Origin: Planctomycetota bacterium
GTDB taxonomy: Bacteria > Planctomycetota > Phycisphaerae > Tepidisphaerales > Tepidisphaeraceae
DNA: 37,492 bases
NCBI GenBank assembly: GCA_038746835.1
Contig: JBCDKH010000012.1
Location: 1-37,492, forward strand
Direction: 5' to 3'
Made by a program: the position numbers and the translations under genes. The notes under the pieces are model-generated. The model was not told where the DNA came from. It saw only the letters and a list, made by a program, of their open reading frames with translations, and searched no databases. Of this stretch, positions 1,061 through 29,600 are shown piece by piece. How positions within the stretch are numbered: position 1 is the first letter of the stretch; each line of letters begins with the position of its first letter.

Positions 1061-4000
1061 ATGAAACGTCGTCACATTCAGTCCGTCCTCGCTGCTGCCG
1101 TCGTCGCGGCGATGCCCGCCGTCACCCACGCGGACGATCTCACCTGGCAGGGCAACGCTGGTCCGCTCAACTTCTGGGACACCGCCACCAACTGGACCCC
1201 GGCCCAGACGCCGGACTCGACCGACAACGTCTTCCTCGGACGCGACATCGGCCTCGGGCTCGAGACCATCATCCTCGGTGCCACCAGCAACGCCGCCAAC
1301 GTCAACTTCACCAGCGGCCAGTGGGAGCTGACTGGTGCCGCAGGCGGCGTGCTGACCAGCACCGGCTTTCCGCTCATCGACGACCTGCTCGCGACCGACC
1401 TGGACTCGGGCGTCTTCGTCAATCTCTCGAACGGTGCGGTCTGGAACAGCCAGCAGAACTTCAGCGTCGCCGGCGACGGCTTCGGCACGCTGCTGGTCGA
1501 CAGTGGCTCGGTTATCAACGCCCGCGCCTTCCGCGTCGGCGGGCTTGAAGATCAGGACGGCGTCGGCGTGATGACCGTCAGCGGCACCGGCAGCCGACTC
1601 GAAGCGACGCTCAACCTCAACACGAACCTCTTCGCCATCGGCTTCGGCACGGGCACCGGCACGCTCAACGTCCTCGACGGTGCGACCATGGGCACGACGA
1701 CGACCGGTGCGGGCGACATCCGTGTGGGCGACGGCGTCGGCTCGACCGGCACGCTGAACGTCGACGGCGTGGGCAGCTTCGTCGAAACCGAAGACCTGCT
1801 CATCGGTAACACCGGCGACGGTTTCTTGAACGTCACCAACGGCGGCCGGGTCATCCTGACCGACGGCACCTCGCCGCAAGCCATCATCGGCGTCGCCGAC
1901 GGTGCCAATGGCGCGGCCTTCGTTTCCGGGGCGGGATCAGAGCTAACCGGCTGGCGAGTCGAAGTTGGTTCATCCGGAAACGGCCGGCTCGTGGTCAGCG
2001 ATGGCGGCCTGGCGCGTGCCCGCTTCAGCAGCAGCGATATCGCCACCGGCAACGGGGACGTTCAGATCGGCTTCCTCGCCAGCGCACAAGGCGTTGCCTC
2101 GGTCGTCGGCACCGGCACGCTTCAGGCCGACCGCTTCCTTCTCGTCGGCAACGATGGCGACGGGACACTCCTCGTCGGACGCGACCTCGCCAACAACAGC
2201 GTCGGCGGCGGCACGGTGATCGCGCGAGACCTCTACATCGGCGAGGGCGTCGGCAACACGTTCACCAACGCGATGATCGTCGACGGCGGCACCGTCAACG
2301 TCGGCAACAACATCCGCGTCGGCAGCCAGTCCGCCGGCACGATGGAAGTCCTCAACGGCAGCACCGTCACGGCGACCGACATCCAAGTCGGTGCGTTGCC
2401 CGGCGCGAACGGCACACTCACGGTCGACGGCGTCGGAACGAGCGTCACCGCCACGGAAATGTTCGCAGGCAACCGCAACAGCGGCGATCCGTCGGTCGGC
2501 GTCATCAATGTTCAGAACAACGCGACCGCCACCTTCACGCAAGCGTCCGGCGTCGCAGTCACGCTCGGGGACGATCCGGGCGGCGAGGGGACCATCAACA
2601 TCTCCTCGGGCGGCAGTGTTGCGACGACCGGCGTGGCCGAGGTCTGGGTCGGCGGATCGAGCAACGACACCGGCGGCGTCGGCACCATCAACGTCGCCAG
2701 TGGCGGCAGCTTCACCAGCGGTGGACGTGTCATCGTCGGCTGGGGCGTCGACGCCGTCGGTGCCATCGACGTGACGGGCAACGGCTCGACCTTCGACGGT
2801 AACGGCGATTTCGTCCTGGTCGGCTTCGGCGGGACGGGAACGCTCGGCGTCAGCGACGGTGCCAGCTTCACCGCCAACGGCGTCTTCCTCGGCGACGGCA
2901 GCCTCGCCGACGGCACGATGACCGTCTCCGGCAACACGACCACCGCCGACATCGACGGCACCTTCATCGTCGGCGACACCGGCCTTGGTAGCCTGACCAT
3001 CGACGGCGGGGCGACCGTCACCAGCAGCGGCGGCAGTGGCTTCTTTATCGTCGCCGACGAAGGGAACAGCGACGGCTCGAGCCTCACCATCAGCGGTGCC
3101 GGCAGCACGCTCGACTACGCCGGCACCAACCGTGTCATCCTCGGCCACTTTGGCGGCAGCAGTGCCTCTCCGACCACGGTTCTTGTCGAAGACGGTGGCC
3201 TGCTTCGATCGTCGGGTGCCGTCAACGTCTCCGAGCAGGACAACAGCAACACGCTTCTGACCGTCGACGGCGGGACGATCGAAGGGACATCGATGAACGT
3301 CGCGGTCGATCCCGGAACGGTTGCAGACGTCGTCGTCTCGAACGGCGGGCGGATTCTGATCGACGACTTCGCCGAGATCGCCGCGGAGAACAACGGCAAC
3401 GCGTCGCTCATCGTCGAAGATGCCGGCTCGCTCTTCCAGACCGGCGGCGACTTCTCCGTCTCTGCCACCGCCAGCGTCAACAGTGACGGCGACCTGTTCG
3501 TCCGTGACGGCGGCCGCGTCGAAACCGGCAACCTCGGCTTCGTCGGACGCTTCAACAACGACCGCGGCACAGCCACCATCGGCGGCACCGGCGCGCCCGC
3601 TTCCTGGACCATCGGCAGCACCCTCTTCGTCGGCCCGAACACCGCCAGCGGCTTCGGCCTGCTCAATGTCGAAGAAAACGGCACCGTCGACGTCGAAGGC
3701 CCGCTCAGCCTCCGGCAAAACGGCACCGTCAGCGTCAACGGCGGCTCGCTGGAGTTTGACAGCCTGACCCTTTCCGGCGGCACGTTGAACTTCAACAGCG
3801 GCGCGGTCCGCTTCACGAACGCGACAGGCACGACACTCTCTCCCACCACCATCGAAGCGGTGCTCGGCGAAGACGCGACGATCGTCGACGGCCAGACGTT
3901 CGGCGTTGAAGGCTTGGCCGTCCTCGGCGGTGGCTTCCGCATCAACGGCGGCCGGTTCGAAGTCGGCTCGATCGGCACGAGTGGCTTCGACCAGATCGAC

Positions 4001-26316: not shown

Positions 26317-26407
26317 GAGCGGGTCACGTTAGGAGCGCTCCGGATTCTGCAGCTGCTGATGGTGCTGAGACAAGGTGGCACCGCATACCCTCACGGCCCG
26401 CACGATC

Positions 26408-27925
26408 ATGCCAGCGACCGCCTCCGAGATCGAAAGCGTCGCCTTCGTCAGCCTCGGCTGCGCGAAGAATTTGGTCGATTCGGAGCGCATGTTGGGCCTT
26501 TTGGCGGCCGATGGGATTGCCGTCACGCCTGATCACGACGAGGCCGATGCGATCGTCATCAACACTTGCGGCTTCCTGGAGGCCAGCAAGACCGAATCGA
26601 TGGCCGAGATCAACGCGGCGATCGATTTGAAAGAGGCGGGCAAGGTCAAGCGCGTGGTGGTCGCGGGATGTTTGGTGCAGCGGCACAAGACCAAGCTGCT
26701 GGCCGACGCGCCGGGCATCGACAAGCTGGTGGGTGTCTTCGACCGCGACCACATCGTCCAGGCCGTCCGCGGCGAGCGAAACGGCGATGATGATCACTAC
26801 CTCGGCAAGTACCACGCCGTGACGCGATCGGGCTCGGCGACGACGAGCAGCGTCGCATCGACGCCGGCAGAGGCCATCCTGAACAAGCAAGCCGCCGGCA
26901 AGCGTGGCATGCGCCTGCCGACGTTCGAGGACGATCGGGCCCGGCTCCGACTCACGCCGCGGCACTTCGCGTACCTGCGGATGAGCGAGGGCTGCAACCA
27001 GGGCTGCGGCTTCTGCACGATCCCCAGCATCCGCGGCCCGATGCGGAGCAAGCCGGTCGACCACATTTTGGCTGAAGGTCAGGAACTCGCCGCCGACGGG
27101 GCGGTAGAGCTTTTGCTGATCGGGCAGGACACGACCAGCTATGGCACCGACATCGGTTGGTTCGGCCAGGGCAAAGGGCTCGCCGGTCTCCTCAAAACCC
27201 TCGACCGCGACCTGCCGGCCGACGTGGCGTGGGTCAGGCTGATGTACGCCTACCCGTCGTGTTTCACCGACGAGATGATCGACGCGCTCGCCTCATGTCG
27301 GCGGATCGTGCCGTACGTCGACATGCCGCTTCAGCACATCAACACCGACGTGCTGGCTCGCATGCGCCGCAAGGTCGACCGTGAGCTGACGACCACGCTC
27401 GTCGACAAGCTGCACGACCGCGTTCCGGGGCTGGCTTTGCGGACGACCTTCATCACCGGCACCCCCGGCGAAACCGAGGCCGAGCACCAGGAACTCGTCG
27501 ACTGGATCGCCGAGGGGCACTTCGAGCACGTGGGCGTCTTCGAGTACTCCCCCGAGCCCGGCACCCCGATGGGCCGCATGGATGGGCAAATCGGCGCCGA
27601 GACGAAGACGTGTCGCTACGGGGAACTGATGGAAGCCCAGCAGCGGGTTGTCTTCGAGCGCAATGCATCACGCGTCGGTCAGACGGTCGAGGTCATCATC
27701 GACGCCTCCCAGGGACAAGCCGACGACGGGACGCTGGTCTACGCCGGTCGAACGACCGGTCAGGCTCCGGACATCGACAGCGTCACCTACGTCGCGAGCA
27801 AGGACGAACTGCACGCGGGTCAGATCGTCGACGTGACGATTTCGGACTACCAGCACTATGACTTGGTTGGGGAGCCGAAGCGGTCAACGGCGCGGGGGCT
27901 TCCGGTGCTGGCAAAGTCACTTTAG
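26408..27925 (+). CDS. rimO: ribosomal protein S12 methylthiotransferase
   Basis: A radical SAM enzyme that adds a methylthio group to Asp of ribosomal protein S12. Counting from ATG 26408 (505 residues), the N-terminal cluster cysteines are C18 (SLGCAKN), C54 (NTCGF) and C88 (AGCLVQRH). The radical SAM triad is C196, C200 and C203 (CNQGCGFC, then TIPSIRGP). A TRAM domain closes the protein. SLGCAKNLVDSE identifies RimO rather than MiaB. A GTG at 26375 would add eleven residues. There is an insert of about 45 residues, rich in Ser, Thr and charged residues, before the radical SAM motif. The last codons and stop lie inside a palindrome shared with the convergent transposase gene. Confidence 0.94.
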   Translation: MPATASEIESVAFVSLGCAKNLVDSERMLGLLAADGIAVTPDHDEADAIVINTCGFLEASKTESMAEINAAIDLKEAGKVKRVVVAGCLVQRHKTKLLADAPGIDKLVGVFDRDHIVQAVRGERNGDDDHYLGKYHAVTRSGSATTSSVASTPAEAILNKQAAGKRGMRLPTFEDDRARLRLTPRHFAYLRMSEGCNQGCGFCTIPSIRGPMRSKPVDHILAEGQELAADGAVELLLIGQDTTSYGTDIGWFGQGKGLAGLLKTLDRDLPADVAWVRLMYAYPSCFTDEMIDALASCRRIVPYVDMPLQHINTDVLARMRRKVDRELTTTLVDKLHDRVPGLALRTTFITGTPGETEAEHQELVDWIAEGHFEHVGVFEYSPEPGTPMGRMDGQIGAETKTCRYGELMEAQQRVVFERNASRVGQTVEVIIDASQGQADDGTLVYAGRTTGQAPDIDSVTYVASKDELHAGQIVDVTISDYQHYDLVGEPKRSTARGLPVLAKSL

Positions 27926-27932
27926 TGACTTT
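27913..27932. repeat. palindrome at the left end of the RAYT cassette
   Basis: AAAGTCACT (27913-27921), two bases, AGTGACTTT (27924-27932): a perfect 9-bp inverted repeat. It contains the rimO stop TAG (27923-27925) on the plus strand and the RAYT stop TGA (27919-27917) on the minus strand. Confidence 0.9.
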
Positions 27933-28513
27933 GACGTGCGTGTCTCGGATAAGGAACCCCCGGTGAGAAACGCATCAAGCTCAAACGCACGCTTCACAGC
28001 GCGATCGATGTCGACGTTCACACGCGTGTGGAGATAGTCACACCCGTTACGAACCAGTCCGTGTCGCGCTCCTTGCGTGAGCGTGTAGCGGTAAGCGTTG
28101 CGACACTGTTTCTCGTTACGAATGCAACCGTCAAAGTATCCTTGACCAACACCATCTCCTCTCCAGAATTCTTTCCTGCGTTCGGGAAGGAGATCGTTGA
28201 CGAGCTTCGCGACACTCCCGTGCAACTTTCGCATCATGGGACCGAGCTCTCGACCCACCCGCAAGAACCCGATCGTGTGGTAGTGGTTGCTCAGCAGCGA
28301 TGTCACGAAGGGAATGAAATCGTGCTGTCCGGTGTACTTGTCAAATCGATCCCAGAAAATCGATTTGGCTTCTTCAGATGAAAATGCAGGAAATCCTGAT
28401 CTCGTCTTCGCAGTGATGAAATAAACCTGCCGGTCAAGGTACCAGTGCTCGAACTTGTGCTTTCCTTTGTAGTACTCGGGCATGCCAGGAACGCTCTTGT
28501 CGATCGATGGCAC
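27917..28513 (-). CDS. REP-associated tyrosine transposase (RAYT, Y1_Tnp superfamily)
   Basis: A 198-residue single-strand transposase of the IS200/REP type. The metal-binding HxH is H77-Y-H79 in SLLSNHYHTIGF. Aligning YFDGCIRNEKQC...AYRYTLTQGARHGLV with the common RAYT pattern RYIxxNPVxAGLV makes Y143 the likely nucleophile; the usual NP is QG here. FEHWYLDRQVYFITAKT is the family's first strand pair. The start is GTG 28513, or ATG 28483, which begins at PEYYKGKHKFEHWY; neither has a clear Shine-Dalgarno. The coding sequence looks less GC-rich than its neighbours, a sign of transfer. Flanking palindromes are likely its cognate hairpins. Confidence 0.88.
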   Translation of the reverse strand: MPSIDKSVPGMPEYYKGKHKFEHWYLDRQVYFITAKTRSGFPAFSSEEAKSIFWDRFDKYTGQHDFIPFVTSLLSNHYHTIGFLRVGRELGPMMRKLHGSVAKLVNDLLPERRKEFWRGDGVGQGYFDGCIRNEKQCRNAYRYTLTQGARHGLVRNGCDYLHTRVNVDIDRAVKRAFELDAFLTGGSLSETRTSKSLK

Positions 28514-28545
28514 GGAGCAAGAGTAGCGATTTCCATCCAGTTTCC

Positions 28546-28565
28546 AAAGTCACTAAAGTGACATT
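28546..28565. repeat. palindrome at the right end of the RAYT cassette
   Basis: AAAGTCACT (28546-28554), AA, then AGTGACATT (28557-28565): the same palindrome as at 27913-27932 with one arm mismatch (A for T) and a changed centre. It lies between the RAYT start and the ATG of the agmatine deiminase gene (28572). Confidence 0.85.
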
Positions 28566-28571
28566 GCCTCC

Positions 28572-29600
28572 ATGTCCCCCGCACCGCGCGAGCTCGACTT
28601 CCGCTTCCCACCGGAGTGGGCGCTCCACGACGCGACGTGGATGAGCTTCCCGCGCCCGGACGGACAGAGCTTTCCCGGTCGCTACGACCGAGTCCTTCCG
28701 AACCTCACGAACGTGATCCGGACGATCGCGCGATTCGAGACGGTGCGGATCAACGTCCCGGACAGAACTTGGGCACAGAAAGTCCGCGACCTCGTCGGAA
28801 GCGTCGACGTCGAGACGATCGAGATCCCGACGAATGAGCCGTGGTGCCGAGACCACGGGCCTGCGTTCGTGGTGGACGACGAAGGGGAGCTTGCCGTCGC
28901 GAACTGGCGCTACAACGCGTGGGGCGGGAAGTATCCGCCATGGGAGGACGACGACGCGGTACCGAAACGCATCGCAGAACACCTCGGCCTGCGGCTCTTT
29001 GAGCCGGGCATCGTCATGGAAGGCGGAGCGGTCGACTTCGACGGCCGAGGCTCAATCCTCACCACACGCGACTGCCTCCTCAACCCCAACCGCAACGGGA
29101 ACCTCAACATCTACGACGTCGAAGGCTACCTCCTCGACTTCTACGGTCAGGAACGCGTTCACTGGCTCACCGGCGGCATCGCGGGAGACGACACCGACGG
29201 GCACGTCGACGACCTCGCTCGCTTCATTGATCCGAACACCATCGTCGTCGGCGTCGAGGACAACCCGTCCGACGTGAACCACGCCGCGACCACCTCGGCC
29301 TACGAACAGTGCCGACAGCTCGGGTACGACGTCGTCCAACTTCCCATGCCCGGCCCGGTCGAGATCGAAGGCGAACGCATGCCCGCGACCTACGTCAATT
29401 TCAGCTTCGTCAACGGCGGGCTCGTCGTCCCGACGTACGGGCACGACAACGACGACCGCTGCCTCGCGATCCTGCGGGAACGCCTGCCGGGTCGAGAGGT
29501 CGTGGGCGTCGATTGCTCCGAGCTGATCTGGGGACTCGGGGCGGTGCACTGCCTGACGCAGCAGCAGCCGAGGCCGGAAAGCTGGAAGGAGCAAGCTTGA
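28572..29600 (+). CDS. aguA: agmatine deiminase
   Basis: It hydrolyses agmatine to N-carbamoylputrescine and ammonia, the first step of one putrescine route. It belongs to the guanidino-group-modifying (PPAD-type) fold. The 342-residue sequence shows FPPEWALHDATWMSFPR, the substrate site NEPWCRDHGP (C92, R93, D94), MEGGAVDFDGRG, the catalytic His211 in GDDTDGHVDDLARF, and the nucleophile Cys327 in LGAVHCLTQQQ. All motifs of an active enzyme are present. No Shine-Dalgarno is visible before ATG 28572, and the RAYT palindrome occupies the leader. No other polyamine gene is nearby. The stop overlaps the acpS start. Confidence 0.93.
   Translation: MSPAPRELDFRFPPEWALHDATWMSFPRPDGQSFPGRYDRVLPNLTNVIRTIARFETVRINVPDRTWAQKVRDLVGSVDVETIEIPTNEPWCRDHGPAFVVDDEGELAVANWRYNAWGGKYPPWEDDDAVPKRIAEHLGLRLFEPGIVMEGGAVDFDGRGSILTTRDCLLNPNRNGNLNIYDVEGYLLDFYGQERVHWLTGGIAGDDTDGHVDDLARFIDPNTIVVGVEDNPSDVNHAATTSAYEQCRQLGYDVVQLPMPGPVEIEGERMPATYVNFSFVNGGLVVPTYGHDNDDRCLAILRERLPGREVVGVDCSELIWGLGAVHCLTQQQPRPESWKEQA
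29586..29591 (+). promoter_or_regulatory. Shine-Dalgarno of acpS that decides a TTG start
   Basis: AAGGAG lies within the last codons of the agmatine deiminase gene, 5 nt before TTG 29597. The in-frame reading from that TTG gives an AcpS of normal length. Confidence 0.7.

Follow-up and report, generated by a model that had tools for sequence, protein, structure and literature searches.

A probable REPtron of a planctomycete RAYT clade with hairpins marked by loop and CC tail

On contig C12 of a planctomycete draft genome (3.85 Mb, 335 contigs), a RAYT gene and the two inverted hairpins around it very probably form a REPtron, that is, a RAYT gene inside two inverted REPs. We place it in a planctomycete RAYT clade in which a conserved loop and tail, in place of a GTAG foot, define the hairpins. 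This reading was supported by conserved HUH Y1 residues and the predicted fold, by a hairpin pair found across the clade, by co-divergence of hairpin and protein, and by solitary hairpins of the same design near gene 3' ends.

The locus and its protein

The window (the whole stretch of 37,492 nucleotides that was analysed) carries rimO, the RAYT gene and an aguA-like gene consecutively (Table 1). An earlier note, made from the sequence alone, had described palindromic inverted ends here, and these were confirmed and extended. The palindrome AAAGTCACTTTAGTGACTTT occupies 27913-27932, and an inverted copy that differs at one position occupies 28546-28565. The chance expectation of such a match within the window, with up to three mismatches, was 0.00 and shuffles gave none. 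The full inverted repeat is 24 bp, GGCAAAGTCACTTTAGTGACTTTG (27910-27933) against GGCAATGTCACTTTAGTGACTTTG on the minus strand (28568-28545), and 23 of 24 positions were identical with the repeats aligned in register by eye. Read outward, both ends are CAAAGTCACTAAAGTGACWTTGCC. The unit of hairpin, RAYT gene and hairpin measures 659 bp. The feet of the two hairpins are GTCAA and TCCAA, and the canonical 5' GT[AG]G foot was not found at either.

Table 1. Positions in the window of the RAYT gene, its hairpins and the neighbouring genes
Feature	Position	Strand	Remarks
rimO (UPF0004 / radical SAM / TRAM), host gene	26375..27925	+	
Left REP hairpin, downstream of RAYT	27910..27933	-	outward on minus strand CAAAGTCACTAAAGTGACTTTGCC; R1 score 30.9 bits
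RAYT / TnpA-REP-like Y1 HUH endonuclease (predicted)	27917..28513	-	198 aa, GTG start; HYH 77-79, Tyr143, Q147
Right REP hairpin, upstream of RAYT, inverted relative to left	28545..28568	+	outward CAAAGTCACTAAAGTGACATTGCC; R1 score 26.7 bits
aguA-like agmatine deiminase (PAD_porph), host gene	28572..29600	+	start 3 bp outside right hairpin

The left hairpin overlaps the ends of both adjacent reading frames. It contains the rimO stop TAG (27923-27925) and the RAYT stop TGA (27919-27917, minus strand), and the last rimO codons with the stop, AAG TCA CTT TAG, are hairpin sequence. By tblastn, the RimO proteins of relatives end in ...RGLKVLRA or ...RSLKVLAQR, and the protein here ends in ...RGLPVLAKSL. 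The base composition was, as the earlier note had said, unlike that of the host: GC was 0.53 in the RAYT gene against 0.65 in the flanks, the largest deficit among the 56 loci compared. The median difference between gene and flanks over the family was -0.045, so the RAYT gene of this clade is generally somewhat AT-rich.

The complete Y1 transposase with an HYH motif and Tyr143 claimed in that note was also borne out. H77, H79, Y143 and Q147 were invariant in an alignment with 42 relatives, and conservation in the clade reached the N terminus (HRFEHWYxDNQVYFIT). The NCBIfam model NF047646 (REP-associated tyrosine transposase, REP_Tyr_transpos) matched with 59.5 bits (E 3.3e-16), below its curated cut-off of 80 bits, and matched 42 of 42 clade members; Pfam Y1_Tnp stayed below threshold at 12.4 bits. 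The AlphaFold model of the protein (pLDDT 83, pTM 0.80) had as its best PDB match in Foldseek 4er8_A, a RAYT-REP hairpin complex (E 3.3e-8, probability 1.00), followed by IS200/IS605 transposases. From the NF047646 match, the invariant residues and the fold matches we take the protein to be a RAYT-like Y1 HUH enzyme, and infer that it is active. At 27930-27990, past a run of five G, the C-terminal GVPYxRY tail of the relatives lies in another frame, through either a natural frameshift or an assembly error.

Hairpin design across the clade

A scan of the genome contigs with the single protein gave no match; the alignment query succeeded and returned 50 loci, and the record titles name Phycisphaerae, Pirellulales or unplaced Planctomycetota in nearly every case. 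Matches at E <= 1e-5 were present in 20 of 397 genomes of the same class, our own genome counted in; one of the 20 is L022, a remote 26% match that is an outlier outside the clade and is also counted among the 56 loci that were left after removal of duplicates. Identity among clade members was 49-63%. The gene is single-copy in its own genome, and the other genomes hold one or two divergent copies. One clade member (L006/L048, G159 C227) has an in-frame TAG inside the coding region and is possibly a decaying copy. Another record (L065, G358) is titled Vicinamibacteraceae (Acidobacteriota); the genome collection puts it in the locus's own class, and the title is probably wrong.

The hairpins were concentrated around the gene. 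The flanks of the gene (33.2 kb in total) contained 108 CTNNAG hairpins and the more distant background (220.7 kb) contained 12, an enrichment of about 60-fold near the gene. By an automatic criterion, 38 of the 56 loci had such a hairpin upstream, 40 downstream and 32 on both sides. Between loci the stems varied, and the changes were compensatory. Within a locus the two ends were alike: they shared 5.25 of 6 stem positions, where 10,000 permutations gave 3.08 on average and 3.97 at most. Across 53 hairpins, 92% of stem cells were paired, a percentage that is inflated because the hairpins had been chosen for paired stems; two-sided changes numbered 105 against 29.7 after shuffling, and the covariation score was 0.666 against 0.198, a signal that was lost when partners were slid. 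The match between ends and the conservation of loop and tail are free of that selection. The conserved marks were a CT-N-A-AG loop and an outer CC tail: in raw outward orientation, C occupied position +10 after the loop in 90% of hairpins and A was the second variable loop base in 83%. Stem similarity rose with protein identity (Mantel r 0.53, 0 of 2000 permutations), a co-divergence of enzyme and palindrome already reported for other RAYTs (PMC2817692). Hairpins also occur inside the RAYT coding region, in L071 (about position 3324) and L074 (about 519-626).

The hairpins frequently end the gene. Of the loci, 40 had both a clean frame and a hairpin downstream; in 13 of these the RAYT stop was the TGA or TAA of the loop itself, and in 3 more, this locus among them, it lay in a hairpin arm. 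It is not unusual for a hairpin core to contain a stop in one of the three frames by chance, and so what stands out is that the spacing is conserved.

Dispersed hairpins and mobility of the unit

The exact palindrome occurred at only two sites in its own genome, the RAYT ends, a result that by itself suggested the absence of a REP population. The covariance model (R1) of the clade hairpins overturned this. It found at least 13 further sites in the same genome, and the pattern CAG-N5-CTGAAG-N5-CAGCC gave 11 exact sites and several with one or two mismatches; the two methods together gave about 17 convincing further sites, all solitary. The 11 exact sites had nine different stems between them, with complementarity at 54 of the 55 free stem pairs. 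The genome-wide palindrome search proposed in the earlier note thus had a divided outcome: the exact sequence was confined to this locus, and the hairpin class was dispersed. Because of this dispersal we regard the locus as a REPtron whose genome has a REP population, rather than as a lone cassette.

When genes were called crudely, no intergenic dispersed site fell between divergent genes, and the majority were within 40 nt of a gene 3' end. This position, together with stems selected for pairing and free in sequence, would suit bidirectional transcription terminators or mRNA 3' stabilisers serving rimO and the RAYT gene and unrelated to the enzyme. However, no run of T was seen after the hairpins, the loop and CC tail are conserved, the ends match within a locus, stem similarity tracks the transposase, and the upstream hairpin precedes the RAYT gene, so we consider this explanation highly improbable. 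A secondary role as a 3' hairpin is possible.

Covariance-model counts are lower bounds, with 150 candidates scored per genome. Related genomes held at least 92 (G098), at least 64 (G139) and at least 104 (Lacipirellula limnantheis, G397) model matches. At least 114 and 40 were present in G026 and G062, respectively, which have other Y1 genes and no RAYT of this clade; three further genomes without a clade RAYT (G016, G041, G080) showed no model matches among the candidates scored.

Flanking and dispersed hairpins of the own genome agreed in loop class and register and had the CC tail at +9/+10 in common; a single dispersed copy, on contig C210, has the AGTCA stem of the flanking hairpins. The two sets differed in foot and usually in stem (flanking CAA...TTGCC, dispersed CAG...CAGCC, with dispersed feet mostly GACAG), and therefore this RAYT is only a putative cognate enzyme of the dispersed REPs. 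The gene and its own hairpins are AT-rich and the dispersed REPs GC-rich. These differences, and the presence of such REPs in G026 and G062 without a clade RAYT, favour a history in which the dispersed REPs were those of a previous resident RAYT of the clade, which has since been lost or is missing from the assembly, and in which the present gene came in recently and brought its own hairpins. The shared loop class, register and tail and the C210 copy speak against it; we find this history quite possible, while leaning somewhat the other way.

The own genome has a second, canonical-looking RAYT (VMPNHVHLLL ... YIHENPV) at C87:1143-1613 (L237, L255), with an inverted pair of CTGAAG/CTTCAG hairpins on each side (CACGAACTGAAGTTCGTG, CACGATCTTCAGATCGTG). 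Since this gene is also flanked by such hairpins, the CTGAAG loop spans different RAYT classes. Other canonical RAYTs, L245 (G098 C88) and L247 (G048), likewise have CTNNAG-loop hairpins (GGTGCGCTTCAGCGCACC and GCCGAGCTCCAGCTCGGC). The C87 gene is not favoured as the owner of the dispersed REPs, because its hairpins have other stems and a CC tail in another register. Nor are the four remaining weak Y1 matches of the genome, which have no such hairpins.

The low GC, the patchy distribution and a tree incongruent with the hosts suggest that the unit may be mobile as a cassette. In the tree, the eight members from the locus's own family were scattered, and strongly supported branches force this label to change at least three times; a Phycisphaerales copy (L070) was nested among Pirellulales copies in a group with good support. 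The same tree shape could arise from ancient paralogy followed by loss. When the same neighbouring sequence was taken as reference, the gene ran in opposite directions within two locus pairs (L033/L037 and L046/L052). The gene is kept in place in some lineages, with neighbours common across genera (L034/L039 and L024/L080). rimO was beside aguA in none of the 29 aguA loci of relatives, so none of these presented the empty site that the earlier note had proposed to look for. In L046, L052, L042 and L045, kb-scale insertions or deletions separated the RAYT hairpins from neighbours that are otherwise conserved, as would be seen if REPs mark a variable site. The sole clean presence/absence difference of a REP among the close locus pairs checked was a 25-bp hairpin unit at 1863 of L074, absent from L071.

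The 659-bp unit might go further and jump by itself, as an autonomous single-strand transposon and compact IS200-like element. The inverted hairpins on either side of the gene in most clade members, the presence in 20 of 397 genomes of the class, the lowest relative GC among the 56 loci, the incongruent tree and the two orientation reversals would all be expected of such an element. Yet the gene is single in its own genome and present elsewhere in one or two divergent copies, unlike active ISs, and its neighbours are fixed across genera in the two pairs named above. The published view is that REPtrons do not transpose as a unit. We judge autonomous transposition unlikely and retain the REPtron reading.

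Proposed mechanism and comparison with known systems

In the mechanism that we propose, the protein would bind the hairpin (AAAGTCACTAAAGTGACTTTGCC) as single-stranded DNA, for example on the lagging-strand template, reading the C-T-N-A-A-G loop and the CC tail and tolerating almost any complementary stem. It would then cut near the hairpin foot, with Tyr143 as the nucleophile, and join strands, and this cutting and joining would copy or move REPs. The paired inverted hairpins may rarely lead to excision, inversion or transfer of the gene itself. The present copy was presumably acquired horizontally and may have come to lie at the end of rimO, which would have received a new stop codon from the hairpin. 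Evidence against the REPtron reading and this mechanism comes from the NF047646 score below its cut-off, from the other Y1 genes of the own genome, one of which (C87) has its own CTGAAG hairpins, and from the hairpin-rich G026 and G062, which have no clade RAYT.

Our general proposal for the clade, just short of an even call, is that its RAYTs recognise REPs by the C-T-N-A-A-G loop and by a 3' CC tail whose distance is fixed, and read the stem as a duplex only. One genome could then hold freely varying, compensating stems, and the loop would double as the transposase stop codon, tying the gene 3' end to the element end.

Work on RAYTs rests mostly on proteobacterial GTAG REPs. The planctomycete hairpins, with loop and tail kept and stem varied, are a natural experiment on what the enzyme reads, and the set leads to a simple predicted rule for recognition in vitro. 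Counting by exact sequence overlooks REP populations of this kind; the exact search gave two sites against about nineteen by structural search.

IS200/IS605 insertion sequences transpose as a unit, usually in several near-identical copies. The locus resembles them in fold, in the HUH and YxxxQ signature and in its end hairpins, but has symmetric inverted hairpins at both ends and only one copy in the genome, although a single copy alone would be compatible with a one-copy IS.

TIRYT genes in TIRtrons (Di Nocera 2013, PMC3733652) are RAYT-like genes with terminal inverted repeats, some of them self-complementary. The 24-bp repeats of the present locus lack their common motif GGGGWSAS, and its ends are instead REP-like hairpins with dispersed relatives.

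Class 3 TnpA-Y1 proteins have been described from Planctomycetes, Acidobacteria and Proteobacteria, with Y...Q and no GTAG (Quentin 2018, PMC6006769). The clade is like this class in being planctomycete-biased and rare, in its IS200-like Y...Q and conservation reaching the N terminus, and in atypical hairpins without GTAG that have dispersed copies. In contrast, the 5' foot CnGA reported for the class was not recognised in the clade hairpins. Membership, which we compared by published description only, is a lead.

The closest likeness is to the RAYT/TnpA-REP REPtrons (PMC2817692; E. coli TnpA-REP, PDB 4ER8), which share the Y1 HUH enzyme, the lone gene between inverted palindromes, the dispersed extragenic palindromes and the co-divergence of enzyme and palindrome. 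The earlier note had seen the geometry of the locus as a departure from the usual RAYT picture. This did not hold, because a RAYT between two inverted REPs is the standard, textbook arrangement (Nunvar 2010, PMC2817692). The differences are that the hairpins here lack the 5' GTAG/GTGG foot and are marked by the loop and a 3' CC tail, and that their stems are nearly free to vary, even inside one genome. We found no paper on loop-defined REPs in planctomycetes in the literature searched, most subscription journals being outside it. The kind of system is known; its planctomycete version tags the hairpins by loop and CC tail and not by the usual GTAG.
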